Assembly (NCBI RefSeq): GCF_002252635.1
Contig: NZ_NQKX01000010.1
Coordinates: forward strand, 1-64,000
Direction of reading: 5' to 3'
Length of the DNA stretch: 64,000 nucleotides
DNA from: Synechococcus sp. MW101C3
GTDB taxonomy: Bacteria; Cyanobacteriota; Cyanobacteriia; PCC-6307; Cyanobiaceae
The position numbers and the translations under genes were made by a program. Positions 22,012 to 37,736 of the stretch are shown here, piece after piece. Numbering within the stretch: position 1 is the first letter of the stretch; each line of letters opens with the position of its first letter. The notes beneath the pieces are model-generated. The model saw only the letters and a program-made list of their open reading frames with translations, did not search any database and had not been told where the DNA came from.

Positions 22012-22039
22012 TGACCATGGAACCGTCTGCCTGCCTGCG

Positions 22040-22159: not shown

Positions 22160-22218
22160 AGGCGCAGGGGCGAGCAGGGCAGCCAGAATCGCGCTTCGTC
22201 CCACTCCTTTGCGCGTCG

Positions 22219-22494
22219 ATGTCCGCCGATCCCCTCACCTCAGCCGTCAGCGCACGCATCTGCGCCCACATGAACAACGATCACGCCGAGGCCGTACTGG
22301 CCTACGCCCGCCACTACGGCGGAGTGGCAGACGCCCAGGCGGCCCACATGCTTCAGGTGCTGCCGGAAGCCATGGAACTCGACGTGGATGGCGCCACCAT
22401 CTCCGTACCCTTCGATCACCCGCTCACGGACAGTGAGGACGCTCACCGGACCCTCGTCGCCATGCTGCGGGCCATGCCCTCACAGCCGGGCTGA
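22219..22494 (+). CDS. DUF2470 domain protein
   Basis: 91 aa. The segment ARICAHMNNDHAEAVLAYARHYGG followed by MLQVLPEAMELDVDG matches the DUF2470 domain, found alone or at the C-terminus of HugZ/HutZ-type heme and pyridoxamine-oxidase-like proteins. Here it stands alone; any heme or tetrapyrrole role is only suggested by that association. Confidence 0.75.
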   Translation: MSADPLTSAVSARICAHMNNDHAEAVLAYARHYGGVADAQAAHMLQVLPEAMELDVDGATISVPFDHPLTDSEDAHRTLVAMLRAMPSQPG

Positions 22495-22588
22495 GCGGCG
22501 TCTCAGCCGCAGGGATCACAATGGCGCCGGTTGGGAAGGCTGAGGAGACACGGCAGGTGGGAGTCCTGCCACTCCCCGCCCACACGCC

Positions 22589-23287: not shown

Positions 23288-23319
23288 TCTAAGATCCGGG
23301 AGCGCTGCGGCCGCAGCCT

Positions 23320-23392
23320 GCCGGGATAGCTCAGTTGGTAGAGCAGGCGACTGAAAATCGCCGTGTCCCCAGTTCAAATCTGGGTCCTGGCA
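23320..23392 (+). tRNA. trnF: tRNA-Phe (anticodon GAA)
   Basis: 73 nt cloverleaf: acceptor GCCGGGA pairs with TCCTGGC (one G-U), D-arm AGCTCAGTTGGTAGAGC, anticodon loop CTGAAAA, T-arm CCAGTTCAAATCTGG. Confidence 0.95.
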
Positions 23393-23567
23393 TCCACCAT
23401 TTCTGGCCTACAGCCTTTTCGTGCCGCGATTTTCGGGCACCGTGCGCTGTGTAGTTCTGCCTGGCTTCGTGCTCAGCCGCTGAAACTCCGGGTCGATTCC
23501 GGCGTCGGCGGCGGTCACCAGGCCGGGGCTTGCCGAAACTTCCATTGCCCTCCCCGACGCAGCTTTC

Positions 23568-23807
23568 ATGATGCGCACCCCCCCCGAGTGGGACTCGAAT
23601 CAACTGTTCAACAACGCCGACAGCTTTGGCATGTCGTTTGATCAGGCCTGGCAGGCCTCTCTGGCGGCCGACCCCTCCCCGGACCTGAGCGAGGCGGAGA
23701 GGCTCGCGGCCATCCTGGACGCCCTGAGTGACCACCCTTTCGCCATCAACCAGCCGGATCTGGTGGCCCAGGTGGCGGCGTTCCGCCTGCGGTTGCTGGG
23801 CGGCTAA
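23568..23807 (+). CDS. Hypothetical protein, 79 aa
   Basis: 79 aa (ATG ATG start; the second ATG at 23571 is equally possible). Soluble, with a helical AERLAAILDALSDHPFAINQPDLVAQVAAFRLRLL C-terminal half and no hydrophobic segments. I do not recognise the family. It lies between tRNA-Phe and cpcT and its stop codon sits inside a hexanucleotide repeat. Confidence 0.6.
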   Translation: MMRTPPEWDSNQLFNNADSFGMSFDQAWQASLAADPSPDLSEAERLAAILDALSDHPFAINQPDLVAQVAAFRLRLLGG

Positions 23808-23843
23808 GGCTGAGGCTGAGGCTGGGGCTGGGGCTGGGGCTGG
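23802..23843 (+). repeat. Imperfect hexanucleotide tandem repeat
   Basis: Seven consecutive units of GGCTRR: one GGCTAA, two GGCTGA and four GGCTGG. It begins at the end of the upstream hypothetical gene (TAA stop inside unit 1) and lies 100 nt before cpcT. Confidence 0.85.
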
Positions 23844-23943
23844 GGCATGCTGCACCGCAACGTTCTTCGGCTTCCACTACAGGCTTCCAGCAAAGGCTCC
23901 GGCCAGAAACTGCCAGCGCAGGCTCCGCTCATAGGATCCGCTC

Positions 23944-24540
23944 ATGACCACGACCCTGCGCCGTCTGGTGGAGATGCTGAGCGCCGGCTTCAGCAACCAG
24001 CACCAGGCGTTTGAGAACCCACCGATCTACGCCCACATCCTGGTGGCCTTCCGTCCCGTGCCGCAGCTCGGAGAAGGTGCCTTGCTGCTGGAGCAGTCTT
24101 ATGCCTTCGCACCGCGGCAGCCCTACCGGATCCGCATCCTGCGGGCTGAGGCGTCACCGGATGGCTCGGTGCGCATCCATAACCACGCGTTGGTGGAGGA
24201 GAAGCGGTTCTGGGGGGCTGTGGAGGAGCCGGAGCGGATGGCGACGATCCAGAACGACGACCTGCGCCTGCTCAAGGGCTGCTCGTACGTGGTTCGCCAG
24301 CAGGGAGAAGGTTTCGTGGGCGAGGTGGAGCCCGGCTGTGGTTGCCTGGTGGAACGCAAGGGGAGCGTGGCCTACCTGGTGAGCAGCTTTGAGCTCGATC
24401 CCCGCGGGATGCGCACGATCGACCGCGGCCACGATCCGGAAACCCACCAGCAGCTGTGGGGATCAGTGGCTGGCCCCTTCGAGTTTCAGCGAACCCACGA
24501 TTACAGCGCAGAGATCCCAGCCGATTGGTTCGCCGCCTGA
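23944..24540 (+). CDS. cpcT: CpcT/CpeT-family phycobiliprotein lyase
   Basis: 198 aa, CpeT/CpcT family (DUF1001 fold): NPPIYAHILVAFRPVP, EQSYAFAPRQPYRIRIL, GCGCLVER and SSFELDPRGMRTIDRGHDP are family signatures. CpcT attaches phycocyanobilin to Cys153 of the phycocyanin beta subunit. Both CpcB copies in this window keep Cys153, and no phycoerythrin genes are present, so CpcT is favoured over CpeT. First gene of the phycobilisome cluster. Confidence 0.88.
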   Translation: MTTTLRRLVEMLSAGFSNQHQAFENPPIYAHILVAFRPVPQLGEGALLLEQSYAFAPRQPYRIRILRAEASPDGSVRIHNHALVEEKRFWGAVEEPERMATIQNDDLRLLKGCSYVVRQQGEGFVGEVEPGCGCLVERKGSVAYLVSSFELDPRGMRTIDRGHDPETHQQLWGSVAGPFEFQRTHDYSAEIPADWFAA

Positions 24541-24706
24541 GGCATGACCGGGGCGGGCGGCACAGCCTGCCCCACCAACTTCAAGACTTCTTCATGAAGA
24601 GAATGTCATGAACTCTTATTTTGTAAAGGAGTATGTGTGGATGCTTTTCATTCACCAAGATCGCGACGAGAGCCTCTAGCTTCTACCACCAGCACAACAC
24701 TTTCGC

Positions 24707-25525
24707 ATGCCTCTGCCCCTGCTCGAATACAGCCAGATCGCGCAAAATGCCCGCGTCAAAAGCTATTCCGTCGGCAGTGAGGAGGATCCCCGCCGCTCCC
24801 CCGAAGGTCTGCGCCGCAGCCCTCAGGACATGGACGCTTTGATCGAGCGCTCCTACCGCCAGATCTTCTTCCACGCCTTCAAAGTCGACCGCGACGCCGC
24901 CCTGGAATCGCAGTTTCGCAACGGCCAGATCACAACACGACTCTTCATTCGCGGTCTTCTGCTATCGCCGCGATTCCGTGAAGGCTTCTATCGCTGCAAC
25001 AGCAATTACGCGATGGTGGATCAGATCGTCGGCCGCGTTCTCGGCCGCAAAGTGAATGGGGATGGGGAACGGCTCGCTCTCTCCATTCTGATTGCGCAGC
25101 GCGGGCTTGAAGGCTGTGTCGATGCCCTGCTGGAGTCGAATGAGTATCTCGATCGTTTCGGCGAGATGGACGTTCCCCAGCAATTGGGACGTGTGCTGCC
25201 TGGCAACCCCGGCGGTGAGCTGCCGTTCAACCAGCAAGCCCCCCGTTACACCGCTTACTGGAGGGACGCCCAGTCCAAACGAGCGCCTGCAGGGCCCTTC
25301 CGCGGCACCCGCTCCTGGGGCAGCACCCCCCACATGGTGATGGGCACCGACGTGATGGCTCCCGGCCCGGTTCCCGTTCAGGTGTCGCCCACCTGGAAGA
25401 ACGGCCAACCACCACGCCTTGCGATGAATCTCTGGCTGCTGGCCGGAGCCCTCGGCGCTCTCGAACTGGTGAGGGTGCTGCTCACAACGGCTGGCGCCAT
25501 GCTGAGCACCGGTTCCGGGGGCTGA
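24707..25525 (+). CDS. cpcL: Rod linker with C-terminal membrane helix, CpcL-type (CpcG2)
   Basis: 272 aa. N-terminal PBS linker domain (ARVKSYSVGSEEDPR, DALIERSYRQIFFHAFKVDRD, FIRGLLLSPRFREGFY) identifies the CpcG family. Unlike rod-core CpcG1, the C-terminus is hydrophobic: about residues 240-263 (NLWLLAGALGALELVRVLL) can form a membrane helix. This architecture is that of CpcL, which anchors core-less phycocyanin rods in the thylakoid and delivers energy mainly to photosystem I. The leader (24541-24706) is AT-rich for this genome and holds a CTTCATGAAG palindrome. A classical cpcG may lie elsewhere. Confidence 0.82.
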   Translation: MPLPLLEYSQIAQNARVKSYSVGSEEDPRRSPEGLRRSPQDMDALIERSYRQIFFHAFKVDRDAALESQFRNGQITTRLFIRGLLLSPRFREGFYRCNSNYAMVDQIVGRVLGRKVNGDGERLALSILIAQRGLEGCVDALLESNEYLDRFGEMDVPQQLGRVLPGNPGGELPFNQQAPRYTAYWRDAQSKRAPAGPFRGTRSWGSTPHMVMGTDVMAPGPVPVQVSPTWKNGQPPRLAMNLWLLAGALGALELVRVLLTTAGAMLSTGSGG

Positions 25526-25607
25526 GTCCCAAGCGTGAGCAAGGGCTTGGGCGCCCATGGCCCAGGCCCATCGTTCATCTTCAGATGGCTTGCCCAGGCA
25601 GCCCGCT

Positions 25608-26195
25608 TCAGGCCGTCAGTTCATCCATGAAGGGTTGTTCCTCGTCCTCGGGGAACACATCGTCGGCTTCGCTGGGACGTTCAGGGCGCTCCAAGGCTGC
25701 CGGCATGGAACGCGCCTTCGCCAGCGACGGCTCCTGAACATGGAGGCCGAACACCTTGGCCCCGCTCATGGCGCCAGCAGCCTCAGCAGCGGCCAGATTG
25801 TCCCTGTCGCCAGGCTCGGGCGGCGATGCTTCGAGCAACGATTCTTCCAACGGGCGCCCTTCGACCTGCGCGCGGCGCCTGGGCTGGGCATGCAGCACCT
25901 GCAAACGCGGCGGCGCGGCATTGGCTTCAGCAACTACCCCCTGTGTCCCCTCCAGCAGCGACTCCAGAGAGGCAAGCCGTTGGCCGGTGGCTTCCAGCAC
26001 ATCCACCAGAGCGGCGGCGCTGCCGGCTTGCACCGAAGCCTGCTCTTCCAGGCACCGCTTCTGCTCATCCCAGCGGCCCATGCGCTCTTCCAGCTCCAGC
26101 AGACGGAGGGTGAGCGTTTCGCAGATCACACTGAGCGACTGGAGCTGAAGGCTCATGCGATGGGACCAGGAATCCGCCGCAGGCAGGGACGTCAT
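25608..26195 (-). CDS. Coiled-coil hypothetical protein in the phycobilisome locus
   Basis: 195 aa from MTSLPAADSW; the open frame upstream is antisense to cpcC1. Residues about 15-75 are rich in Leu, Glu and Gln with heptad-like spacing (SLQLQSLSVICETLTLRLLE), predicting a coiled coil; the C-terminal half is charged, Pro-rich and probably disordered, ending DEEQPFMDELTA. I do not recognise a family. It is divergent from cpcC1 over about 210 nt and convergent with cpcL, so it may be regulated together with rod genes. Confidence 0.65.
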   Translation of the reverse strand: MTSLPAADSWSHRMSLQLQSLSVICETLTLRLLELEERMGRWDEQKRCLEEQASVQAGSAAALVDVLEATGQRLASLESLLEGTQGVVAEANAAPPRLQVLHAQPRRRAQVEGRPLEESLLEASPPEPGDRDNLAAAEAAGAMSGAKVFGLHVQEPSLAKARSMPAALERPERPSEADDVFPEDEEQPFMDELTA

Positions 26196-26405
26196 GGCTT
26201 CACACAACAGACCAAGGCATGGCCGGATGGTATCGGCGTTGGCGGATGGCGCCAGATCTCTGCTTTGTAACGATTCTGGAACCAGGCGCTGGAGGTTGTA
26301 GTCCCCCCATAGGATCCCGCTAATGCCAGACCCGTCCGCGAGTGCCGCGCCGTGTACGGCACCCTCCCGACAGGCCCTGTCTCCCCACCCCCGGCTCGCA
26401 CGCCC

Positions 26406-27251
26406 ATGACACTCGTCAACGCTGCCTATCTGGGCATTGACCGTTTTTCGACCTCGCAAAACAAGGAAAACTGGCTGAACGCCACCGAATCCGACAAGGC
26501 CACATTGATTCGGGCTGTTTACCAGCAGGTTCTCGGCTTCCAATACGTCCTCAAGAGCGATCGCCTTGAGGGTCCTGAATCCCTGTTCCGTCGCGGCTAT
26601 CTGAGTGTGCGCGAGCTGGTTCGCCAGATCGCCAAGAGCAGCCTCTACCGCAAGCGCTTCTTCGAAAGCACCAACCCCTACCGGTTCATCGAACTCAACT
26701 TCAAGCATCTTCTCGGGCGCGCTCCCCAGAACAAGGCCGAAATGCTTGAGCACTTCACCATCCTGCAGGAGCAGGGCTTCGACGCCGAAATCGATTCCTA
26801 CATCGACAGCGCCGAGTACCAGGAGCGTTTCGGAGAAGATCAGGTCCCTTATCTCCACGGCTGGAATTACTCCGCCGGGCAGCAGGGCCTTCAGTTCTCC
26901 TACCTCCTCCAGCTCACCCGCGGCGTGGCCGCTTCTGTGAAAGGTGATCTGGCCAAGAACCAATCCCGTCTCAACCCCTCCATTCACAAGGAAGCCCCCA
27001 TTCCGGTGGTGAGCCCGAATGCCTGCGGTTCGGCTTTCCGCAAGGTGGAAGACGATGGCGTCACCCGCATGGGCGTGGGTGCTGGCCAGCAAGGCCGCAC
27101 CTATCGCGTTGAGATCACTGGTTTCAACAACTACAAACTGCACAAGCGCAGCAACCGTGTGCGCTTCATTCCGTTCGACAAACTGCTGGAGTACCAGCAG
27201 CAGATTCACCGCCAGGGTGGCAAGGTTGCCAGCCTCACACCAGTGAACTGA
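26406..27251 (+). CDS. cpcC: Phycobilisome rod linker polypeptide CpcC, copy 1
   Basis: 281 aa from MTLVNAAYLGIDRF; upstream residues are not conserved. N-terminal PBS linker domain (about 15-180; RFIELNFKHLLGRAP, EIDSYIDSAEYQERFGED) and C-terminal CpcD-like domain (about 225-281; RTYRVEITGFNNYKLHKR). It joins phycocyanin hexamers in rods and sets their spectra. cpcD follows 31 nt later. A second CpcC (30440-31291) is clearly homologous but diverged, so the two may occupy different rod positions. Confidence 0.95.
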   Translation: MTLVNAAYLGIDRFSTSQNKENWLNATESDKATLIRAVYQQVLGFQYVLKSDRLEGPESLFRRGYLSVRELVRQIAKSSLYRKRFFESTNPYRFIELNFKHLLGRAPQNKAEMLEHFTILQEQGFDAEIDSYIDSAEYQERFGEDQVPYLHGWNYSAGQQGLQFSYLLQLTRGVAASVKGDLAKNQSRLNPSIHKEAPIPVVSPNACGSAFRKVEDDGVTRMGVGAGQQGRTYRVEITGFNNYKLHKRSNRVRFIPFDKLLEYQQQIHRQGGKVASLTPVN

Positions 27252-27282
27252 TCTTTTTCTCCATCCCCTCGCCATCCCAGCC

Positions 27283-27501
27283 ATGAAGGTCTCCGCAGGC
27301 ACCCGCGGCAGCAGCTTCAGCAGCAACCGCCAAGTCACCATCAGCGTCACCGGCATCGTCAACAACGACTATGTGCGCAGCTCTGATTGCGTCATGCAGG
27401 TTCCCTACACCCGCATGAACGACACGCTTCGGCTCGTGAACCGCCTTGGCGGCAAGGTCACCAACGTCTCTGTCAGCGGCGGCGATATCGCAGCTGATTG
27501 A
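27283..27501 (+). CDS. cpcD: Phycobilisome rod-capping linker CpcD
   Basis: 72 aa, a single CpcD domain (QVTISVTGIVNNDYVRSSD, VPYTRMNDTLRLVNRLGGKV). The 8-9 kDa CpcD caps the distal end of phycocyanin rods and limits rod length. It is in one unit with cpcC1 and followed by a terminator. Confidence 0.95.
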   Translation: MKVSAGTRGSSFSSNRQVTISVTGIVNNDYVRSSDCVMQVPYTRMNDTLRLVNRLGGKVTNVSVSGGDIAAD

Positions 27502-27567
27502 TTCCGGCGGATGACCCACCCCGCCTAGCGCCTGAAGCCTGGGGCCCTTCCTGGGCCTCTTCTCATC

Positions 27568-27594
27568 AAACCTCCTCCATGGGAGGTTTTTTTT
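27568..27594 (+). terminator. Terminator of cpcC1-cpcD
   Basis: AACCTCC / GGAGGTT stem with a 6-nt loop followed by a run of eight T. Confidence 0.88.
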
Positions 27595-27699
27595 ATGGCA
27601 GCACTGACCTGGATTTGAACGGGGCGGCGTGAACCCCGGAAGCCAGTCCAGGGTGAAGGAGAGTCTTCAGCCAGCCCGACTTGAGCCGGGGACTCGACC

Positions 27700-28737
27700 A
27701 TGAAACACACCAGGCCTTCACCCGAACAGATCCTCCGCACGCTCCAGCCCGAAGGGCTTCTCCAAAGGAGTGGAAGCTTCTGGCTGAGGCAGAGCTGGAG
27801 AAGGCAATGCGCAAAGACCTTGCCGAGAGCAACTTCTGAGCCCGGAACTCCGGCACAGGGCCGTCGTGGTCCTGCAGGAGCGATACCGGGCATCTGAACG
27901 CTTCGTCTGTCGGGTGGCTGGCCAGCACAGCAGCACGCAGCGCCATGGCGGCAAGGTCATCGATCTGGAGGAGAGCAAGCTCCGGCGGCGTCCCCTAAGG
28001 ATCGCGGCCGAACACATCCGCTGGGACAGCCGCATGGCCTATCGCCTTCTGCGTGAGGGCTGGATGGTGAATCACAAGTGAGTGCAACGGCTGTGGCGGG
28101 AGATAGGCCTGCAGCGCCCCACTCCTCGCAAGCAGAAGCGTGCACGACCCGCCGAAGGCTCCGTGCGGCCTCACCAGGGTGAGCATCCCCATCAGGTGTG
28201 GGCCATGGACGTCCAGTTCGATGCCACCGCTGATGGAAGGCGGCTCAAGTTCCTGAACGTGATCGACGAGGACAGCCGCCTGTGCCAGGCGATCCGTCTG
28301 GGACGGCGTTGCAAGGCCAGAGATGTGGTGGCGGTGCTGGAGAAGCTCATCAGGCTCTACCCAGCTCAGGCCTTCATCCGCAGTGACAACGGGCCGGAGT
28401 TCATTGCTCATGCCCTCAGACGCTGGAGCGAGAGCAGCGGTACGGGAACGGCCTAGATCGAGCCAGGATCGCCTTGGCAGAACGGCTTGCCGAGTCGTTG
28501 AACGGACGGTTCCGCGATGCGTTCCTGAAGACGGAACTGTTCTCGACACCAACCGAGGCCCAGTTGCCATCAGACCAATGGCAGAGGGACCACAACACCC
28601 ATGAGCTCCGCTTGACTTCGTCTACAGGACGCACTCAGCGCTCCAGGGTCATGCGCCCCTGGGAGCAGCTCAACTGGGAGCTGCAGCATGGCCACAACCA
28701 ACAACTCTCCTTCGGACTGGACCGATCAAGGGGGTGA
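27700..28737 (+). mobile_element. Degenerate IS3-family element (orfA/orfB remnants)
   Basis: Broken pieces of an IS3-type transposase. orfA: MKHTRPSPEQILRTLQ at 27700, then in another frame WKLLAEAELEKAMRKDLAES to a stop near 27838, with the middle lost. orfB: RIAAEHIRWDSRMAYRLLREG, an in-frame TGA at 28079-28081, then QVWAMDVQFDAT (first catalytic Asp), AFIRSDNGPEF (second Asp), a frame change near 28450, and LAESLNGRFRDAFLKTELF (catalytic Glu region). With a stop and several frameshifts it cannot encode an active transposase. It separates cpcC1-cpcD from cpcB1. Confidence 0.85.
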
Positions 28738-29218
28738 CTTCAGGGGTGCGGTCGGGCAGCGCGGAGCTGGGCTGGCCAGTGTCAATCCGAACCGAGCTGA
28801 ACTGGACGCACTTGACCAGCACGGAATCGGACTGGACGCGTTGATCCCCTCAACGTTGAACTTGCAGCGCTCGAGCAGGATTCCCACAACTCGTGGGCAT
28901 CAAAGTGATCCCACACATGGGATTTTCACCAGGTTTCTGTTCGCTCAGATACATTCACTGGGGCCTGCCACCTCAGCCTGAGCACAGAATGCCTGGCTTC
29001 ACCACGCAAAAGCCTTGCCCCGCAATGGATATCAGCAGGCAATGACCATTTGTTAAGCATCGCTCACAAGATTAGGCGTTGGGCCAAAAATACGTAGGCC
29101 AAGTCGGGGGTCCGCTGGCACCGGTCAAACAACGGTGTTCAGCGCAAGACACACCTTTCTGGCTCGCGTGAACGCCTTTGGCGCTCTCGCTTTGCACACC
29201 CACCCTCCCGACCCCACC
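28738..29218. other. Upstream region of cpcB copy 1
   Basis: About 480 nt without a gene between the IS3 remnant and the cpcBA repeat. The part from about 28985 to 29100 is richer in A/T (CATTTGTTAAGCAT, GGCCAAAAATACGTA) and is the likely promoter region of cpcB1A1. No confident -10/-35 pair or NtcA site was identified. It shares no similarity with the upstream region of copy 2 except a few bases next to the repeat. Confidence 0.5.
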
Positions 29219-29242
29219 CGTCGAGAACAGGAGCTCATTTAC

Positions 29243-29761
29243 ATGTTCGACGCCTTCACCAAGGTCGTTGCTCAGGCTGATGCCCGCGGCGAATTCCTCA
29301 GCAGCGCCCAGATCGACGCCCTGGCGTCGGTTGTCGCTGACAGCAACAAGCGCATGGATGCTGTCAACCGCATCACCTCCAACGCCTCCAGCCTCGTCAC
29401 CAACGCTGCTCGCGATCTCTTCGATCAACAGCCTGCTCTGATCGCCCCCGGTGGCAACGCCTACACCCATCGCCGCATGGCTGCCTGCCTGCGCGACATG
29501 GAGATCATCCTCCGCTACGTCACCTACGCCGTCTTCACCGGCGACGCTTCCGTCCTGGAAGATCGTTGCCTCAACGGCCTTCGCGAAACCTATCTCGCCC
29601 TCGGCGTCCCCGGCGCTTCGGTGGCTGAAGGAGTCCGCAAGATGAAGGACGCCGCCATCGCTCTCGTCAACGATCGCAACGGCATCACCCCCGGTGATTG
29701 CTCCGCTCTCGTTTCCGAAATCGGCACCTACTTCGATCGCGCCGCCTCTGCTGTCGGCTGA
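29243..29761 (+). CDS. cpcB: Phycocyanin beta subunit, copy 1
   Basis: 172 aa from [13 protein letters not shown]; a good Shine-Dalgarno (AGGAG) precedes the ATG and earlier codons are outside the conserved protein. Both phycocyanobilin sites are present: Cys82 ([10 protein letters not shown]) and Cys153 (TPGDCSALV). Asn72, which is usually N-methylated, is conserved. The protein is the beta half of the rod phycocyanin trimer. Identical to copy 2 at 32161. Confidence 0.98.
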
Positions 29762-29840
29762 TCGGCTGCACCTGGATCGGCTGGTCTCATCCCGCTGATC
29801 CAACCCTTTCTTCGGTTCCCACCTTCTTCTCCTTCACCCA

Positions 29841-30332
29841 ATGTCGAAGACTCCCCTCACCGAGGCCGTTGCTGCCGCCGACTCCCAGGGTCGTTTCCTG
29901 AGCAACACCGAGCTCAACGCCGCCTTCGGTCGCTTCGAGCGCGCCAAGAACGCCCTCGAAGCTGCTCGCCAGCTCACCGCCAACGCTGACGCTCTCGTCA
30001 ACGGCGCTGCTCAGGCCGTCTACAACAAGTACCCCTACACCACCCAGCAGCAGGGTTCCAACTTCGCCTCCACCCCCCGGGGCAAAGAGAAGTGTGCCCG
30101 TGACATCGGTTACTACCTCCGTCACATCACCTATTCCCTCGTTGCTGGTGGCACCGGCCCCCTCGATGAGTACCTCATCGCTGGTCTCGATGAAATCAAC
30201 CGTGCCTTCGAGCTCTCCCCCTCCTGGTACGTTGAAGCCCTGAACTACATCAAGGCCAACCACGGCGTCTCCGGCGACCCCGGTGTCATCGCCAACAACT
30301 ACATCGACTACGCCATCAACGCCCTCGTCTGA
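29841..30332 (+). CDS. cpcA: Phycocyanin alpha subunit, copy 1
   Basis: 163 aa, one residue longer than the usual 162 because of MSKTP instead of MKTP. The single bilin site is Cys85 (equivalent to Cys84) in [14 protein letters not shown]. The usual [20 protein letters not shown]-terminal segment is intact. Pairs with CpcB 79 nt upstream and is followed by a terminator before cpcC2. CpcE/CpcF, encoded downstream, attach the chromophore. Confidence 0.98.
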
Positions 30333-30391
30333 TCCCTCGTGGATTCAACGATGCAACCGAGGATTCTCTCCTCGCTTGCCATCGGCGCAAC

Positions 30392-30417
30392 GGAGGCCTC
30401 ACGGCCTCCTTTTTTTT
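30392..30417 (+). terminator. Terminator or attenuator between cpcA1 and cpcC2
   Basis: GGAGGCC / GGCCTCC 7-bp stem, 4-nt loop, eight T. It ends 22 nt before cpcC2, so it probably limits linker expression relative to phycocyanin by partial read-through. Confidence 0.88.
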
Positions 30418-30439
30418 ACCCTCTTCCAGCCCGGCACCC

Positions 30440-31291
30440 ATGACACTCGTCAACGCCGCCTATCTCGGCATTGAGCGCTTCGCCAACGATCGCGGTAACG
30501 AAAATTGGAGCAACGGCTCCGATCAGGACAAAGGGAAACTGATCCGCGCCGTTTACCGGCAGGTTTTCGGTTACCAATACCTGATGGAGAGCGAGCGGAT
30601 TGAAGGGGCAGAGTCCCTCTTCAAGAACGGCTACCTCAGCATCCGCGAGTTGGTGCGGATGATGGCGAAAAGTGGCCTGTACAGGGCAAAGTTCTTCGAG
30701 AACTGCAACCCCTACCACTTCATTGAACTGAATCACAAGCATCTGCTCGGCCGCGCCCCTCACAGCAAGGCGGAGATGCTGCATCACTTCACGATCCTCC
30801 AGGAGCACGGCTACGACGCCGAAATCGACTCCTACATCGACAGCGATGAGTATCAGGCGCGGTTCGGGGAAGAAACCGTTCCCTACCTGCATGGCTGGGA
30901 TTACTCCGCAGGCCATGCCGGTCGTCAGTTCTCGTGGCTGATGCAGCTCACCCGCGGAGCGGCTGCTTCGGTGAAGGGTGACACTGCCGGCACCAACTTC
31001 CGTCTCGGCAAGGCCCTCCACCAGGACCGTGCACTGCCCGTGGTGAGCCCGAACGCCGCCGGTGCAGGCTTCCAGCCCACCAAGGTCGCCAACGAGTCGA
31101 TCACCAAGATGGCCAAGGGGATCGGCCAGCAGGCGAAGATGTATCGGGTGGAAGTCACCGGGTTCAACAACTACCGGCTGCACAAGCGCAGCAACACGGT
31201 GCGCTTTGTTCCCTTCAACAAAATGCTGGAGTACCAGCAGATGATTCACCGTCAAGGTGGCCGCGTGGCCAGCGTCACACCGGTGAACTGA
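30440..31291 (+). CDS. cpcC: Phycobilisome rod linker polypeptide CpcC, copy 2
   Basis: 283 aa, same two-domain design as copy 1: PBS linker domain (HFIELNHKHLLGRAP) and C-terminal CpcD-like domain (KMYRVEVTGFNNYRLHKR). The two copies share long blocks but differ at many positions, unlike the identical cpcBA copies, so they probably specify different rod disks. It lies behind cpcB1A1 and is closed by its own terminator. Confidence 0.95.
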   Translation: MTLVNAAYLGIERFANDRGNENWSNGSDQDKGKLIRAVYRQVFGYQYLMESERIEGAESLFKNGYLSIRELVRMMAKSGLYRAKFFENCNPYHFIELNHKHLLGRAPHSKAEMLHHFTILQEHGYDAEIDSYIDSDEYQARFGEETVPYLHGWDYSAGHAGRQFSWLMQLTRGAAASVKGDTAGTNFRLGKALHQDRALPVVSPNAAGAGFQPTKVANESITKMAKGIGQQAKMYRVEVTGFNNYRLHKRSNTVRFVPFNKMLEYQQMIHRQGGRVASVTPVN

Positions 31292-31321
31292 CTCAACGTC
31301 CCCAGAATCCATGGGCATCAG

Positions 31322-31350
31322 GCCCGGCGGTAACCCCGCCGGGCTTTTTT
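31322..31350 (+). terminator. Terminator of cpcC2
   Basis: GCCCGGCGG / CCGCCGGGC 9-bp stem with a 5-nt loop followed by six T. Confidence 0.92.
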
Positions 31351-32136
31351 GTGGCTTTGTGACCGTGCAGCGCCATCACCGCCCCTGCCCTGCACTTGGC
31401 TGTCAGGACAGAAGCGGCAGGAGAACGGGGCTGTCGTCAGAAGCAGCAAGCACCAGCCAAGGCTGGCGGGTCAGCCTGTCGGCCAGAGCAGGGCGATTGG
31501 AGCGGCGCGCCTCAGCCGAGCAGCCGCCGACCTGATCGTGGGCCGCAGGGCACCAATCCAGTGACATCGGGCCAGTGAGGTTTGCCCAGTGGCGTTGGGC
31601 GGCCAGGCAGCTCACTCAGAGACGGAGCGTCTTCACCAGCGGCGGAGCGCTTTGACCCACTGAACAGCGATTCGTCCGGCAGCGGGGCGACATGGCCAGC
31701 CGTCTATGGATCTGGGTGCTGGCGTGGTGACCGCGCCGCCCGGGCACCAGCGGACATCGACGCGGACCTTGCCGGAGCGGGGCAACCGCCCTGTGGAGGC
31801 AAGACACACAGGCTTGACCACTCAAGGCCTTGGGGCCGACTTCAAGAGAAGGCCGGCCGACCAGGAGCAATGGCTGACCGCTGCGGGGAACGGCCACTGG
31901 CGGACCCGGGCCAGCGAGGCGGAATCCGGAACGATGCCTGCAGCCTCAGGGCTTGCCAACGGGGAGGGGCGTCGCCATCGTTGTAGCGTGGAGGCACAGA
32001 CAAGGGGGTCTGACCCCAGTGCGCAAGGGGCTAGGTGACCCTTTGTGAACTTCCCACGGAACGGGTGCATTCGTCCGCAGAATAGCGCAGTCGATCGGAA
32101 GAATCCGATCGCTGTCAACCCCATCCCGACCCCGAT
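31351..32136. other. Gene-free spacer before cpcB copy 2
   Basis: About 790 nt with no recognisable protein in any frame; the frames have stops and Arg/Pro/Gly-rich translations. The palindrome GGGGTCTGACCCC (32005-32017) is of a kind often seen next to mobile or REP-like sequences. The last 100 nt must contain the copy-2 promoter. The block could be a decayed insertion, but no transposase motif was identified. Confidence 0.5.
32092..32111. promoter_or_regulatory. Perfect inverted repeat upstream of cpcB2
   Basis: CGATCGG and CCGATCG separated by six bases, 49 nt before the cpcB2 ATG and just outside the exact repeat, so it is unique to copy 2. It could be an operator or a 5'-UTR hairpin. 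Confidence 0.45.
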
Positions 32137-32160
32137 CGTCGAGAACAGGAGCTCATTTAC

Positions 32161-32679
32161 ATGTTCGACGCCTTCACCAAGGTCGTTGCTCAGGCTGATG
32201 CCCGCGGCGAATTCCTCAGCAGCGCCCAGATCGACGCCCTGGCGTCGGTTGTCGCTGACAGCAACAAGCGCATGGATGCTGTCAACCGCATCACCTCCAA
32301 CGCCTCCAGCCTCGTCACCAACGCTGCTCGCGATCTCTTCGATCAACAGCCTGCTCTGATCGCCCCCGGTGGCAACGCCTACACCCATCGCCGCATGGCT
32401 GCCTGCCTGCGCGACATGGAGATCATCCTCCGCTACGTCACCTACGCCGTCTTCACCGGCGACGCTTCCGTCCTGGAAGATCGTTGCCTCAACGGCCTTC
32501 GCGAAACCTATCTCGCCCTCGGCGTCCCCGGCGCTTCGGTGGCTGAAGGAGTCCGCAAGATGAAGGACGCCGCCATCGCTCTCGTCAACGATCGCAACGG
32601 CATCACCCCCGGTGATTGCTCCGCTCTCGTTTCCGAAATCGGCACCTACTTCGATCGCGCCGCCTCTGCTGTCGGCTGA
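32161..32679 (+). CDS. cpcB: Phycocyanin beta subunit, copy 2
   Basis: 172 aa, identical to the copy at 29243 including Cys82, Cys153 and Asn72. The ribosome-binding site is also the same. Upstream DNA differs completely, so this copy must have its own promoter. It is followed by cpcA2, then cpcE-cpcF. Confidence 0.98.
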
Positions 32680-32758
32680 TCGGCTGCACCTGGATCGGCT
32701 GGTCTCATCCCGCTGATCCAACCCTTTCTTCGGTTCCCACCTTCTTCTCCTTCACCCA

Positions 32759-33250
32759 ATGTCGAAGACTCCCCTCACCGAGGCCGTTGCTGCCGCCGAC
32801 TCCCAGGGTCGTTTCCTGAGCAACACCGAGCTCAACGCCGCCTTCGGTCGCTTCGAGCGCGCCAAGAACGCCCTCGAAGCTGCTCGCCAGCTCACCGCCA
32901 ACGCTGACGCTCTCGTCAACGGCGCTGCTCAGGCCGTCTACAACAAGTACCCCTACACCACCCAGCAGCAGGGTTCCAACTTCGCCTCCACCCCCCGGGG
33001 CAAAGAGAAGTGTGCCCGTGACATCGGTTACTACCTCCGTCACATCACCTATTCCCTCGTTGCTGGTGGCACCGGCCCCCTCGATGAGTACCTCATCGCT
33101 GGTCTCGATGAAATCAACCGTGCCTTCGAGCTCTCCCCCTCCTGGTACGTTGAAGCCCTGAACTACATCAAGGCCAACCACGGCGTCTCCGGCGACCCCG
33201 GTGTCATCGCCAACAACTACATCGACTACGCCATCAACGCCCTCGTCTGA
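32759..33250 (+). CDS. cpcA: Phycocyanin alpha subunit, copy 2
   Basis: 163 aa, identical to the copy at 29841, bilin site Cys85. Followed by the same hairpin terminator and then a highly structured leader before cpcE rather than by a rod linker gene. Confidence 0.98.
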
Positions 33251-33309
33251 TCCCTCGTGGATTCAACGATGCAACCGAGGATTCTCTCCTCGCTTGCCAT
33301 CGGCGCAAC

Positions 33310-33332
33310 GGAGGCCTCACGGCCTCCTTTTT
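33310..33332 (+). terminator. Terminator of cpcB2-cpcA2
   Basis: GGAGGCC / GGCCTCC stem with a 4-nt loop and only five T, against eight in copy 1; termination may be leakier, allowing read-through into cpcEF. Confidence 0.82.
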
Positions 33333-33338
33333 CATGCG

Positions 33339-33441
33339 CCTGCCTGAATCTGCCTGGCTGACGCCGGCAGGCTCAGGCAGGGCCACCGGACACCGGTCCG
33401 GTAGTTCTTCCGGCAAAGGCAGGCCACCCGCCTGCCTTTGC
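33339..33441 (+). promoter_or_regulatory. Triple-hairpin leader upstream of cpcE
   Basis: Three consecutive perfect stems. (1) 33339-33381: CCTGCCTGA/TCAGGCAGG (9 bp) enclosing GCCTG/CAGGC. (2) 33385-33402: ACCGGAC/GTCCGGT (7 bp, 4-nt loop). (3) 33413-33441: GCAAAGGCAGG/CCTGCCTTTGC (11 bp, 7-nt loop), ending 20 nt before the cpcE ATG. None is followed by a T run, so they look like RNA structure or mRNA-stability elements rather than simple terminators. Confidence 0.6.
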
Positions 33442-33461
33442 GAACCCGACACACAGCGGCC

Positions 33462-34322
33462 ATGGATGTCGCCGGATCCACCATCGACACACCCCTCTCA
33501 GACCCTGCCGCCACGGGCGGTGGCGCACCGATTTCGGAAGCGGAGGCCCTGCGGCGGCTCCGCCAGAGCGAAGACCAGTCGTTGCAGTATTACGCCGCCT
33601 GGTGGCTGGGTCGCATGCGCAGCCGCCACCCCGACGCCGTGCCCCTGTTGTGCGTGTCCCTGAGGCAGCGCCAGCCCCGCCAGCTGGACGCCGGGGTGGA
33701 GCACAATGCCGTCGCCCGCAACGCCGCCCGCGCCCTGGGCAAGCTCGGCTCTGCCGACGCCGTCGCCGACCTGATCGAAGCGCTCGACGATGAGGACGAC
33801 GGGCTGCGCGAAGCCGCGGCCCGGGCCCTCGGTGAGCTGGGAGCCACCGCCGCGGTGGAGACGCTCTGCCGACGGCTCGCCAGCGGTCCCGCCGTGGCCG
33901 GGGCCGTGCAGCCTGCCAGCAGTCGGCTGCAGGAACCCTGCGAAGCGCTGCTGGAAGCCCTTGGGTCGCTTGGGCAGGCCACGCCCACCGTGCTGGCGGT
34001 GATCGAGCCGTTCGTGGCGCATGAGCGGCCGTTGATCCGCAGCGCCGCCTGCCGCGCTCTGCTGCAGCTCACGGGCGACCATCGCTGGGGCGAGCAGCTG
34101 GTGGAACTGCTTGATCATCCCCAGCTGCAGGTGCGGCGCGCCGCCTTGATGGATCTGGGAGCTGCCGGCTGGCGGCCTGCGCTGGAGCCGATTCGCCGCA
34201 CCCTGGCCGAAAACAGCCTCAAGCTGATCGCTTTGCGCGGGCTGGCGGAAAACCTGCAGCCGCCCGCCATGTCCGATCCCGCCACCACCGCTGTGCTGGC
34301 AGTGATGGACGACCTGCTCTGA
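33462..34322 (+). CDS. cpcE: Phycocyanin alpha-subunit phycocyanobilin lyase, CpcE subunit
   Basis: 286 aa from MDVAGSTID. HEAT/armadillo-like repeat protein: NAVARNAARALGKLGSADAV, DGLREAAARALGELGATAAV, RPLIRSAACRALLQL. With CpcF it forms the heterodimeric lyase that attaches phycocyanobilin to the alpha subunit. Position directly after cpcBA and overlapping context with cpcF support CpcE. A related RpcE/PecE activity is less likely because only phycocyanin genes are visible. Confidence 0.92.
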   Translation: MDVAGSTIDTPLSDPAATGGGAPISEAEALRRLRQSEDQSLQYYAAWWLGRMRSRHPDAVPLLCVSLRQRQPRQLDAGVEHNAVARNAARALGKLGSADAVADLIEALDDEDDGLREAAARALGELGATAAVETLCRRLASGPAVAGAVQPASSRLQEPCEALLEALGSLGQATPTVLAVIEPFVAHERPLIRSAACRALLQLTGDHRWGEQLVELLDHPQLQVRRAALMDLGAAGWRPALEPIRRTLAENSLKLIALRGLAENLQPPAMSDPATTAVLAVMDDLL

Positions 34323-34324
34323 CC

Positions 34325-34963
34325 ATGTCATCTGCTGATCCGAGCGTTCTGATTCGCAACCTCAAGGAGGCCGACAGCCCCGTCGGGCTGCTACAGGCCA
34401 CCCGCGCCCTGGCGACGGCCTGCCATCCAGAGGCTGCTGTCCATCTGGTGGAGGTGCTGGGCTTCAACAATCCCGGGGCAGCGGTGGCGGCGGTGGAGGG
34501 ATTGGTCGCCCTCGGCACCGCTGCCGTGGAGCCCCTGCTGACCAACATCGACGGCTACAACTACGGCGCCAGGGCCTGGGCCGTGCGCGCCCTCTCCGGC
34601 ATCGGTGATCCCCGCGGCCTGGCGGTGCTGGAGGAGGCCCTTGCCGAAGACATCGGGCCGAGCGTGCGGCGCGCGGCGGCCCGCGGGCTCGGCCAGCTGC
34701 GGTTGGAGAGCCTGCCGCAGGAGGAGCGCAGCGCCATCTGGCAGCGCTGTCTCACGGGGCTGCTGGCTGGAGCGGCCGATCCGGAATGGGTGGTGCGCTA
34801 TGCCGTCGTGGTGAGCCTGGAGCAACTGCTGCCCCATCCTCTTGCGGCTGAACAGCGCGTGCGCGGGCTGGCGCAGCTGGAGGGACTGGCCGCGCCGGCT
34901 TCGGAAGACACCTTGGTGGTGCGTCTGCGCGCCAGGCTGGCGCTCGACAATCTGTCTGGCTGA
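34325..34963 (+). CDS. cpcF: Phycocyanin alpha-subunit phycocyanobilin lyase, CpcF subunit
   Basis: 212 aa, HEAT-repeat protein shorter than CpcE: NPGAAVAAVEGLVALGTAAV, YNYGARAWAVRALSGIGDPR, GPSVRRAAARGLGQL. Starts 2 nt after the cpcE stop and its stop overlaps the phosphatase start (TGATG), so the three are translationally linked. Confidence 0.92.
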   Translation: MSSADPSVLIRNLKEADSPVGLLQATRALATACHPEAAVHLVEVLGFNNPGAAVAAVEGLVALGTAAVEPLLTNIDGYNYGARAWAVRALSGIGDPRGLAVLEEALAEDIGPSVRRAAARGLGQLRLESLPQEERSAIWQRCLTGLLAGAADPEWVVRYAVVVSLEQLLPHPLAAEQRVRGLAQLEGLAAPASEDTLVVRLRARLALDNLSG

Positions 34964-35529
34964 TGGCGATGGCTCCCACCCGTGTCCTGTTTGTCTGCCT
35001 CGGCAACATCTGCCGCTCCCCGGCGGCGGAAGGGGTGTTCCTCAGCCAACTGGAGCAGGCCGGGCTCTCGCACGCCTTTGCTGTGGATTCCGCCGGCACG
35101 GGCGGTTGGCATGTGGGCCATCCCGCCGATGCGCGCATGCGCGCCGCTGCCGAGCGGCGCGGCATCCTGCTCACCAGCCGGGCCCGCCAGCTCGAACGGG
35201 GCGATCTGGACCGGTTCGACCACATCCTCACGATGGATGAGGACAACCTGGCCGCCGTGCGTGCCCTGGCCGGCGACGGGAACCACAGAGCCACGGTCAC
35301 CCCACTCACCACCTACTGCCGCCGCCACAGCGCCAGCCACGTGCCCGATCCCTATTACGGCGGCAGTCAGGGATTCGAGCAGGTGCTCGACCTTCTGGAT
35401 GACGCCTGCGCCGGACTGTTGGCACACCTCGAAGCCAGTGGCGGCGAGGGTGGCTCTGCCAGTGGAGGCGCCGCCGCCGGTGGACACGGCCCTGGCGGTG
35501 GAGCTGGAAACGGAGCCGGCGCGGCTTAG
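34963..35529 (+). CDS. Low-molecular-weight protein-tyrosine phosphatase
   Basis: 188 aa. CX5R(S) active-site loop CLGNICRSP at the N-terminus (Cys12, Arg18) and the catalytic Asp in VPDPYYGG near residue 128. The last 30-35 residues are a Gly/Ala-rich tail not found in typical family members (150-165 aa). Substrate unknown; translational linkage to cpcEF suggests, but does not prove, a phycobilisome-related role. Its stop codon overlaps that of the opposed panC/cmk gene. Confidence 0.9.
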   Translation: MAMAPTRVLFVCLGNICRSPAAEGVFLSQLEQAGLSHAFAVDSAGTGGWHVGHPADARMRAAAERRGILLTSRARQLERGDLDRFDHILTMDEDNLAAVRALAGDGNHRATVTPLTTYCRRHSASHVPDPYYGGSQGFEQVLDLLDDACAGLLAHLEASGGEGGSASGGAAAGGHGPGGGAGNGAGAA

Positions 35530-37109
35530 GCCGGATCCGGCCAGGCCTCTTCCGGCACCCGCTCGCGAAACAGTTCGGTGAGCCGTTCGATCACCGCTTC
35601 GATCGCCATACCATCGGTGATCACCTCCACCGCATCCTCGGCCTGGAGCAGGGGCGCAACAGCCCGGGTCGAATCGAGCCGGTCGCGTTCGGCGATCTGC
35701 GCCTCCAGCTCCGCGCCTGCTGGTACAGCGAAGCCCCGCTCCGCCAGATCGAGCGCCCGGCGACGCGCCCGCTCCGCCACGGTGGCCGTGAGGAACACCT
35801 TCAGCTCGGCGTCCGGGAATACAGCTGTGCCGATGTCGCGGCCTTCGGCCACCAGGCCGCCGCGCTCCCCCATGCCCTGCTGCTGGCGCGTGAGCGCCTC
35901 ACGCACACAGGCATGGGCCGCCACCACGGACACCTGAGCGGTGACGTCCGGACTGCGGATCGCCGTGGTGATATCGATGCCGTTGATGGTGACGCACGGT
36001 TCGCCGCCGGGGCCGTTGTCGAGGCGAAGCTCCAGGGCCTCGAGCAGGGGAGCCACAGCCGCGGCATCGGCAGGATCGGCCCCCTGGCGCTGCACCCACA
36101 AGGTGACGGCGCGGTACATGGCGCCGGTGTCGAGATAGATCAGCCCCAGCCGCCGGGCGAAGGCGCGGGTCACTGTGCTCTTGCCGGCGCCAGCAGGGCC
36201 GTCGATGGCGACGATCGGGAGACGGGTCATCAGAACGGTGTGATCGATCAGGCGGCTGGGCCCGCAACGGACGGCCACGGCGAGCAGAGCCATGGCGCGG
36301 AGCTGGGTCACCGGCGCCAGGGTCTGGGGGACCACCAGCTCGGCGTACTCCACCGCAAGGGCGGCAGCCTCGAGACCTTGGCACACCGCCTGCTGCACCA
36401 CGGCGGCGCTGCGTTCGCCTGCGGCCACCAGGGCCCGGCCGGCTTCCAGCGCCCGGGGCAGGGCTGCAGCCTGCAGGCGTTGGGAAGAGGAGAGATAACG
36501 GTTGCGGGAGCTGCCGGCCACGCCATCGGCTTCACGCCAGGTGGGACAGCCGCGGATCTGCAGCGGCAGCCCGAGATCGGCCACCACCCGACGCAGCACC
36601 ACCAGCTGTTGCCAGTCTTTTTCGCCGAGCCAGAGCTGCTCAGGGCGGATGAGACCCAGCAAACGGCAGACCACCGTGGCCACCCCTTCGAAGTGGCCCG
36701 GGCGGTGCCGGGCGCAGAGGCCGGCAAGCAAGGCCGGCGGCGGGCACACGCGGGTGAGGCCGGCGTCACCACCGGGGAAGAGCTCTTCGGCCGTGGGCAC
36801 GAACAACGCCATTGCTCCGGCCGCCTCAGCCAGAGCACGATCGGCCTCCAATGTGCGGGGGTACGACTGGAAGTCCTCGCCCGGGCCGAACTGGAGCGGG
36901 TTGACGAACAGGCTCACCAGCACGCGTGGCTGGTGGCGGCGGCCATCCGGCGCGGGCACCAGCCGGCCGGCCCGCTCGATCAGGCTGAGATGGCCGGGGT
37001 GAAGCGCCCCCATGGTGGGCACGAAGTGGAGGGGCACGTTCCGGGTGGAGGGGGTGCCGCACCAATGCTGCAGCTCCCGGCGAGTTCTCAGCAGGCGCAC
37101 CGGCTCCAC
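35526..37109 (-). CDS. panC/cmk: Bifunctional pantothenate synthetase / cytidylate kinase
   Basis: 527 aa fusion. Residues 1 to about 285: PanC, joining pantoate and beta-alanine (PTMGALHPGHLSLIERA, FVNPLQFGPGEDF, RNRYLSS-type segment). From about 294: cytidylate kinase with P-loop DGPAGAGKSTV, DTGAMYRAVTLW and AEGRDIGTAVFPDAELKVFLTA. This fusion is a known cyanobacterial architecture linking coenzyme A and CMP/dCMP phosphorylation. Convergent with the phosphatase gene, stop codons overlapping. Confidence 0.96.
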   Translation of the reverse strand: MEPVRLLRTRRELQHWCGTPSTRNVPLHFVPTMGALHPGHLSLIERAGRLVPAPDGRRHQPRVLVSLFVNPLQFGPGEDFQSYPRTLEADRALAEAAGAMALFVPTAEELFPGGDAGLTRVCPPPALLAGLCARHRPGHFEGVATVVCRLLGLIRPEQLWLGEKDWQQLVVLRRVVADLGLPLQIRGCPTWREADGVAGSSRNRYLSSSQRLQAAALPRALEAGRALVAAGERSAAVVQQAVCQGLEAAALAVEYAELVVPQTLAPVTQLRAMALLAVAVRCGPSRLIDHTVLMTRLPIVAIDGPAGAGKSTVTRAFARRLGLIYLDTGAMYRAVTLWVQRQGADPADAAAVAPLLEALELRLDNGPGGEPCVTINGIDITTAIRSPDVTAQVSVVAAHACVREALTRQQQGMGERGGLVAEGRDIGTAVFPDAELKVFLTATVAERARRRALDLAERGFAVPAGAELEAQIAERDRLDSTRAVAPLLQAEDAVEVITDGMAIEAVIERLTELFRERVPEEAWPDPA

Positions 37110-37116
37110 AAGCGAA

Positions 37117-37149
37117 AGGCCCCAACCGAGGGATTCTCGGATGGGGCCT
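37117..37149 (-). terminator. Hairpin between rlpA and panC/cmk
   Basis: AGGCCCCA / TGGGGCCT 8-bp stem with inner CCGAG/CTCGG pairing, followed on the minus strand by TTTCG; a second hairpin (CACCCCT/AGGGGTG, 37153-37170) precedes it. Together they probably end the rlpA transcript just before the panC start. Confidence 0.6.
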
Positions 37150-37184
37150 GTGCACCCCTCAGAAGGGGTGTTGAAGAGGAAGAC

Positions 37185-37736
37185 CTACCGCAGGACTTCC
37201 AGGCGGACCGGGGCGAGGCCGCTGGCCACGAGGCCCAGGTGCTGGGCGGCTCCATGGGCGAGGTCAATGACGCGGCCGCCGGTGAAGGGGCCTCGGTCAT
37301 TGATGCGCACCACGGCCGTGCGGCCGTTGTTGAGGTTGGTGACCCGCACCTTGGTGCCGAAGGGGAGGGTGCGGTGGGCGGCCGTCATGGTGCCGGGGCG
37401 GAACACCTCGCCGTTGGCGGTGCGATTGCCGAAGAAGCCGGGGCCGTACCAGCTGGCTTTGCCGCTGCTCACGTTGACGACGCGCGGGGCGCGGGGAGCT
37501 GGGGCGACAGGGGCGGGAACAACCGGGCGCACTTCGGGTTCGGGAGCGACTTCGCTCTGCACTTCCCGGATGGCCACGTCAGTGCTGGTTTCGAGCTGGA
37601 CCGTGGGCTGGCTCACCTGGGCCGAAGCCAGCAGGGGGGACTTGTGGGAAAGGGTCGAATCAGCCAGAGCCGGTACGGCGAGGCTGCTGCCGGAGAGCAG
37701 AAAGGCGATGGCGCCAAGGGAAAAGGAAGGTTGCAT
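37185..37736 (-). CDS. rlpA: RlpA-like septal ring lytic transglycosylase (double-psi barrel)
   Basis: 183 aa from MQPSFSLGAI, chosen because a signal peptide (to about residue 26, VPALA) follows. After a Pro/Val-rich linker comes the RlpA double-psi beta-barrel: GKASWYGPGFFGNRTANGEVF, AAHRTLPFGTKVRVTNLNNGR, VVRINDRGPFTGGRVIDLAHGAA, with the conserved catalytic Asp in NDRGPF. No C-terminal SPOR domain is present. Periplasmic cell-wall role inferred. Confidence 0.9.
   Translation of the reverse strand: MQPSFSLGAIAFLLSGSSLAVPALADSTLSHKSPLLASAQVSQPTVQLETSTDVAIREVQSEVAPEPEVRPVVPAPVAPAPRAPRVVNVSSGKASWYGPGFFGNRTANGEVFRPGTMTAAHRTLPFGTKVRVTNLNNGRTAVVRINDRGPFTGGRVIDLAHGAAQHLGLVASGLAPVRLEVLR

Follow-up and report, generated by a model that had tools for sequence, protein, structure and literature searches.

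Two identical cpcBA operons under separate upstream regions in Synechococcus sp. MW101C3: an old pair probably kept alike by recurrent gene conversion

Introduction

A 64,000-nucleotide stretch of Synechococcus sp. MW101C3 (NCBI RefSeq assembly GCF_002252635.1, contig NZ_NQKX01000010.1, positions 1 to 64,000 of the forward strand; hereafter the window) carries the phycocyanin operon cpcBA twice, within a cluster of phycobilisome rod genes. The two operons are identical from the ribosome-binding site to the terminator, and each has an upstream region and an adjoining rod linker gene (cpcC1 or cpcC2) of its own. A previous reading of the letters of this DNA, made without database searches (the sequence-only reading), drew attention to the pair. 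It proposed that the copies either arose by a recent duplication or undergo gene conversion to this day, and that selection or chance has retained two different promoters for one protein product, perhaps so that expression can depend on light or nutrients. We show herein that across related genomes the cpcBA copies group by genome, whereas the adjoining linkers group by position, and that a 14-nucleotide element stands upstream of both operons. The pair appears to be old, and recurrent gene conversion, confined to cpcBA, is the simplest account of its identity.

Results

Two identical tracts in one genome

The two tracts (Table 1) agree at 1196 of 1196 bases, and the agreement cannot be extended by a single base at either end. 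Each tract comprises a leader of 24 nucleotides with the ribosome-binding site, cpcB, a 79-base spacer, cpcA and a terminator-like GGAGGCCTCACGGCCTCC stem, such that identity begins 24 nucleotides 5' of the cpcB ATG and ends, in both copies, in the T-run behind the stem. The sequence-only reading had claimed a base-for-base match, non-coding spacer included, running from the ribosome-binding site into the terminator; this is correct, as are its coordinates. When the whole genome (3,029,138 bases in 18 contigs) was searched with the tract, two full copies were recovered, together with short matches of 101 nucleotides (78%) and 72 nucleotides (76%). A protein search of the genome with CpcB returned nothing above 42% identity besides the two copies; what it gave apart from cpcBA was phycobiliprotein-like matches of 36-42% at contigs C6, C7 and C8. 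As far as the assembly shows, this genome has two cpcBA operons and no lone third cpcB.

Copies group by genome, linkers by position

The copies were compared over an aligned span from the start of cpcB to the end of cpcA, in 20 genomes picked for having at least two full cpcBA copies on one stretch, and thus not a census: that of the window, 8 named records and 11 further genomes, with G231, taken to be WH5701, counted once. One copy, the third of genome GFB01, was admitted by a special rule, as its cpcB (L077 12800-13296) splits into two pieces; this copy of cpcBA lacks one base of the length that the others in that genome have, which suggests a frameshift or an assembly error.

Copies that share a genome are separated by 0-6 differences over 1042-1096 columns in all 20 cases. 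For copies from different genomes the divergence is at least 1.6%, with a median of 14.5% over 190 pairs. In a tree of all 50 copies, those of each genome form one side of a branch (20/20 genomes), and the label "first" or "later" must change 20 times on this tree, the maximum for 20 first copies. All copies are identical in eight of the genomes, where the grouping follows by construction, so that the other 12 are the informative ones. An approximately unbiased test rejects a tree in which all first copies are held together (p 4e-6); because 10 sets of identical rows were left free in it and the likelihood gap is very large (2548), we prefer the branch count. A smaller tree made before (30 rows, 14 genomes) agrees with this, apart from the pair of G070, which is not resolved as drawn.

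The linkers behave differently. In a protein tree, 25 second-position (CpcC2) family rows form one clade (97/100), apart from 18 first-position rows. The best named relative is WH5701, the closest genome compared with the window, with a CpcB 98% identical and a cpcBA DNA 9.6% different. The cpcC1 and cpcC2 of the window share 67% of their protein and 73% of their DNA sequence, and each is nearest to the linker at the same position in WH5701 (83% and 85%, respectively). The order of genes is common to WH5701 and 10 other relatives, some of which have additional copies.

Where the identity stops

Among 14 genomes, exact identity 5' of the ATG ends after 1-103 bases, and after 20-53 bases in all pairs but three (1, 8 and 103). 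In the window, local alignment of the flanks adds 16 nucleotides further upstream of the tract, with 12 of the 16 matching. When upstream regions of 600 nucleotides were compared between genomes, 29 of 30 had their best foreign match at the same kind of position (first with first, later with later), part of the copy-2 signal being derived from the end of cpcC2. Between -300 and -37, the window and WH5701 score 40 and 68 for the same position and 20 and 25 across positions, against a maximum of 28 in 300 shuffles. Summed scores over the same interval favor the same position in 10 of the window's 11 comparisons, several of them narrowly.

An upstream element that goes with the operon

Both upstream regions of the window contain TGACCNTTTGTNAA, which has no other match in the genome even when one mismatch is allowed; the reversed pattern, used as a control, has no exact match and two at one mismatch. 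The element was found with 0-1 mismatch 5' of all 26 cpcBA copies in 12 genomes (window included) of the relatives' family, which we take to be the Cyanobiaceae, and 5' of none of the four copies in the outgroups G070 and G089. In letter-shuffled upstream regions, a match with two mismatches or fewer occurred 34 times in 6000. The one open letter of the element differs by position, being A or G in 12/12 first copies and C in 14/14 later copies of the 12 genomes. An exception to the A/G rule is G230, a genome included at a later point, whose first copy carries T.

Many relatives also have a lone cpcB (29 rows, including L035, L036 and L037), 84-96% identical to the CpcB of the window, with neither an adjacent cpcA nor the element; that of WH5701 is located in L053. 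Because none of these 29 genes has the element within 400 nucleotides at two mismatches or fewer, the element is tied to the complete cpcBA operon and does not accompany cpcB by itself.

A wider set comprised 72 cpcBA rows with at least 300 nucleotides of upstream sequence, not deduplicated. Fifty-three have the element at 0-1 mismatch, two at two mismatches, and 17 are without it, 12 of these coming from outside the family as judged by title or kinship. Six rows have cpcB at a contig end, and the element is present in two and absent from four. From the opposite direction, 30 matches to the element were inspected with their surroundings: in 13 a cpcB follows at +112 to +266, 16 (L143-L158, in genomes of 1.0-1.9 Mb) have no cpcB in the 3-kb locus, and one lies at a contig edge.

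Predicted promoters

A search of 28700-33500 for sigma-70 consensus promoters found none, with 0.6 expected from shuffles; the -10-like boxes described below are therefore placed by conserved spacing alone. An A-rich box (AACAATA and variants) begins 42-44 nucleotides after the start of the element in 42 of 52 distinct upstream regions and 41 nucleotides after it in one, and was not recognized in nine; these offsets are slightly blurred, as four rows (L045, L097, L121 and L126) are shifted by four bases. The corresponding boxes of the window would be AAAAATA and CAGAATA (Table 1). If transcription starts about 6 nucleotides past the box, the leaders would be about 145 nucleotides long for copy 1 and 70 for copy 2, and the element would occupy about -55 to -42.

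The sequence-only reading had described the flanks of the two copies as completely different and the upstream regions as unrelated. Exact identity indeed stops at the tract ends, and the notion of two different promoters being kept agrees with a position-specific upstream similarity that is clear in close relatives and at noise level in distant ones. A complete lack of relation finds no support, given the partial match just upstream of the tracts, the common element and the similarly placed -10-like box.

The position of the element invites comparison with RpaB, a regulator that has its activation sites (HLR1) at -66 to -45 in PCC 6803; cpcB is one of its listed low-light targets (PMC13421787; see also PMC11633204 for RpaB/HLR1 activation of phycobilisome genes). 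The element would lie close to this interval, and TTTGTNAA resembles one reversed half-site of HLR1. The full site of two halves (KTTACAWW, spaced by 2) was not found there; with three mismatches it appears at copy 2 only, amid 38 hits as compared to 50 for the reversed-pattern control. HLR1 was consequently rejected as the identity of the element, and RpaB stays a guess.

The surrounding rod gene cluster

The features of the locus are listed in Table 1. A low-molecular-weight phosphatase gene is also part of the cluster, at its 3' end. Two cpcB-A operons, rod linkers, cpcE/F and this phosphatase gene are features of a type-1 rod region, and the locus would represent a type-1 (phycocyanin) phycobilisome rod cluster in a presumably old layout, cpcC1-cpcD-P1-cpcBA-cpcC2-P2-cpcBA-cpcE-cpcF, where P1 and P2 denote the two predicted promoters. 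A phycocyanin-only genome would also be free of phycoerythrin genes; on this point, the CpcB search yielded, cpcBA aside, only the phycobiliprotein-like matches of 36-42%. Those relatives whose stretch showed a cpcG-like linker have it at the same place, with 53-59% protein identity.

Upstream of promoter 1 sits a degenerate insertion-sequence relic that includes an integrase-core fragment, with related pieces at G000:C1:217984-219132 (76-84%), and the gap from cpcD to the element is about 1.5 kb in the window versus about 0.36 kb in WH5701. The stretch from cpcC2 to promoter 2 (31355-32030) is likewise longer than in WH5701, by about 500 bases; its 676 bases carry no assigned gene and have no second copy anywhere in the genome. 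An Rfam scan of 22000-37500 returned only a tRNA at 23320-23392. Elsewhere in the window, 60903-61117 and 61428-61641 form a pair of direct repeats with 68% identity.

Table 1. Annotated and predicted features of the cpcBA locus, in window coordinates
Feature	Position	Strand	Basis
CpeT/CpcT-family lyase gene	23944-24540		
Phycobilisome linker with one PBS_linker_poly domain, cpcG-like (rod-core) by place	24707-25525	+	Pfam PF00427
cpcC1 rod linker, 281 aa	26406-27251	+	Pfam PBS_linker_poly and CpcD; groups with relatives' first-position linkers
cpcD-like small linker open reading frame, 72 aa	27283-27501	+	Open reading frame; tblastn 55-85% at same place in 11/11 relatives laid out
Degenerate insertion-sequence relic (transposase fragments), limits approximate	27700-28740	+	PF00665 rve in 28082-28453
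Conserved upstream element TGACCATTTGTTAA, copy 1, starting 200 nt before ATG	29043-29056	+	Genome motif search; conserved in relatives
-10-like box AAAAATA, 43 nt after start of element 1 (predicted)	29086-29092	+	Conserved spacing
Identical tract, copy 1 (leader with ribosome-binding site, cpcB, spacer, cpcA, terminator)	29219-30414	+	Tract comparison; genome search
cpcB copy 1, 172 aa	29243-29761	+	Pfam Phycobilisome
cpcA copy 1, 163 aa	29841-30332	+	Pfam Phycobilisome
Terminator-like stem-loop, copy 1	30392-30409	+	
cpcC2 rod linker, 283 aa	30440-31291	+	Pfam PBS_linker_poly and CpcD; groups with second-position linkers
Conserved upstream element TGACCCTTTGTGAA, copy 2, starting 125 nt before ATG	32036-32049	+	Genome motif search; conserved in relatives
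-10-like box CAGAATA, 42 nt after start of element 2 (predicted)	32078-32084	+	Conserved spacing
Identical tract, copy 2	32137-33332	+	Tract comparison; genome search
cpcB copy 2, 172 aa	32161-32679	+	100% identity to copy 1
cpcA copy 2, 163 aa	32759-33250	+	Within identical tract
Terminator-like stem-loop, copy 2	33310-33327	+	
cpcE-like phycobilin lyase subunit	33462-34322	+	HEAT_PBS repeats; order as in relatives
cpcF-like phycobilin lyase subunit (named by place and repeats)	34325-34963	+	HEAT_PBS repeats

Discussion

An old pair, homogenized in cpcBA

Because cpcBA groups by genome while the linkers next to it group by position, we regard the duplication as old and cpcBA alone as homogenized. 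These patterns are most simply accounted for by gene conversion that recurs and is restricted to cpcBA, a mechanism that we infer from them. Conversion between the two operons would maintain their identity over the whole span between the leader with its ribosome-binding site and the terminator, while the promoters and adjoining linkers, outside the tract, would evolve independently. On a rough bound from the 9.6% that separates the window from WH5701, and if change is clock-like, the age of the last homogenization would be at most about 3% of that of the split between the two. Aligning copies and flanks across relatives was the check that the sequence-only reading had named, and once run, it separates the two origins that were left side by side there: ongoing gene conversion fits the grouping of cpcBA by genome, and recent duplication does not fit linkers long diverged by position. 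Taken as a whole, an old two-copy layout with recurrent conversion of cpcBA, promoters and linkers outside the converted tract, and a use in dosage through a shared upstream element is the best explanation at hand, and we give it a probability of about 0.85.

Several observations weigh against this explanation. Conversion is not seen directly; unequal crossing-over can homogenize repeats as well, and amplification of the copies is clear in some relatives. The 20 genomes were selected for having two or more full copies on one stretch. On its left the tract ends within a leader that shows conservation of its own from genome to genome, such that selection may contribute there. Position-specific similarity of the upstream regions is not uniform either: same-position scores exceed cross-position scores in only 44 of 66 pairs of two-copy genomes, distant pairs being at noise level, and for the third upstream region of G055 the best match in another genome lies before a first copy. 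The element, too, is not universal. Among the 17 of 72 rows without it, five (L043, L046, L094, L106 and L125) probably belong to the family; the middle copy of G158 lacks it at one mismatch; and an exact match anywhere in the genome was found in only 116 of 300 family genomes.

Alternative origins of the identity

The alternative that survives best, although we consider it unlikely, is that homogenization proceeds mainly by unequal crossing-over and tandem amplification instead of gene conversion. Copy numbers in relatives fit this view. On a 2.63-Mb contig (L173, G230:C1:528500-548400), G230 carries six tandem cpcBA copies that recur every 2437-2440 bases, and its five CpcC2 proteins are identical. 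In GFB01 and G101, cpcBA is present three times and cpcC2 is doubled; G158 and G111 have three and four copies, respectively, of which the added ones are without a linker of their own. The cpcBA repeat probably feeds unequal crossing-over in these lines. Crossing-over, however, would take flanking sequence with it to one side at least, and where a genome has two copies, the first has retained a promoter of its own and its cpcC1-cpcD neighbors, yet is equally identical. Even an amplified locus can tell against it: G055 has three cpcBA copies and a doubled cpcC2, and its third linker is 58% identical to the CpcC2 of the window, versus 76% for the second, while the three cpcBA copies show no differences. 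It is because these linkers diverge while cpcBA stays the same that conversion appears to be confined to cpcBA. As a repeat, cpcBA would explain both the lines with three to six copies and the breaks of draft genomes at this place.

A recent duplication in this lineage, too young for the copies to have diverged, is less probable still. Zero differences over the length of the tract is what a very young duplicate would show, but its flanks would then be young too, and they are not. The same ordered layout recurs in WH5701 and the 10 other relatives, the window's two linkers differ from each other more than either does from its WH5701 counterpart, and the upstream regions match by position between genomes. 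On the divergence of the linkers and the match of the upstream regions by position, recent duplication was rejected.

An assembly artefact, whether one copy entered at two places or a consensus that masks slight differences between two copies, is very improbable: drafts of relatives do break in this repeat (partial matches start from contig base 1 in G007, G024, G037, G045, G048, G049 and G052), but the window copies lie in different unique flanks within one contig, the same layout occurs in WH5701 and in three genomes assembled as one contig (G025, G055 and G011), and Six et al. (2007, PMC2246261) report twin operons in WH5701 and RS9917. Since at least seven draft genomes break inside cpcBA, copy numbers counted from drafts are probably too low.

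Possible use of two promoters

Under the favored explanation of an old, recurrently converted pair, the use of two operons would be one of dosage, with two promoters supplying the main antenna protein in bulk. Both promoters would be switched through the one shared element TGACCNTTTGTNAA, about 43 nucleotides before the -10-like box, and the different leaders may tune each copy. One regulator may in this manner drive two promoters with different leaders, if the element is indeed a regulator site. Dosage of a very abundant antenna protein, from two promoters of one regulator, is, we infer, the likeliest reason for the persistence of the pair.

A further suggestion is more tentative, and we rate its chances somewhat below even: that TGACCNTTTGTNAA, with a box about 43 nucleotides on, represents an undescribed class of picocyanobacterial promoter dedicated to cpcBA, that conversion stops short of these promoters, and that each position keeps its own letter (A/G at the first copy and C at later ones, with one known exception). 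If true, this would make the locus a natural matched pair, in which one identical transcript body is placed under two conserved switches of one regulator. A conserved element that is unique in its genome offers a concrete starting point for studying the control of the main antenna protein in picocyanobacteria.

Comparison with known systems

An identical cpcBA pair is nothing unusual in the group and has been known in kind since 2007, when "two identical cpcB-A operons" were described for the corresponding region in WH5701, and also in RS9917 (Six et al. 2007, PMC2246261). As in the window, the type-1 region of these strains combines twin cpcB-A operons, rod linkers, CpcE/F lyases and a 3' phosphatase gene, and the gene order computed here for WH5701 is that of the window. 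The insertion-sequence relic before promoter 1 and the extra bases before promoter 2 are, in contrast, features of the window. Another difference is the extra cpcB that WH5701 and RS9917 have elsewhere, discussed in that paper and not given there as a defining feature; the genome of the window has none above the 42% identity noted before.

The likeness extends to Synechococcus elongatus UTEX 2973, where two cpcBA copies flank the rod linkers and adjoin cpcE (PMC10433846). The coding sequences of its cpcB1A1 and cpcB2A2 are identical and their 5'-untranslated regions and promoters divergent; transcript levels differ between the two copies, and high light and darkness lower most transcripts from the gene starts of the region (PMC6091082). 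One copy could be deleted along with the rod linkers, and deletion of the other failed (PMC10433846). Unlike in the window, TGACCNTTTGTNAA was not found in the four upstream regions of G070 and G089, two-copy genomes of the same class and only presumably of the S. elongatus kind, UTEX 2973 itself lying outside the search.

Neither concerted evolution of cpcBA nor the shared element was found in print, which is weak evidence, as the literature covered was open-licence and most subscription papers fall outside it. In the same literature, the phycocyanin operon together with gene conversion led to one paper, apparently on Planktothrix toxin genotypes, and cpcBA together with gene conversion to none; among the matches listed for letters of the element, the papers concern other organisms, to judge by title and abstract. 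A published case of concerted evolution resembles that of cpcBA, in that the paralogues of one species cluster while conserved neighbors mark old, distinct loci; the main text of that study is without the words "phycocyanin", "phycobilisome" or "cpc". Here, by comparison, it is a two-gene operon that appears to be homogenized, together with its spacer, part of its leader and its terminator. The present comparison thereby adds what would be a clean example of an operon that evolves in concert while its promoters and linkers do not take part.

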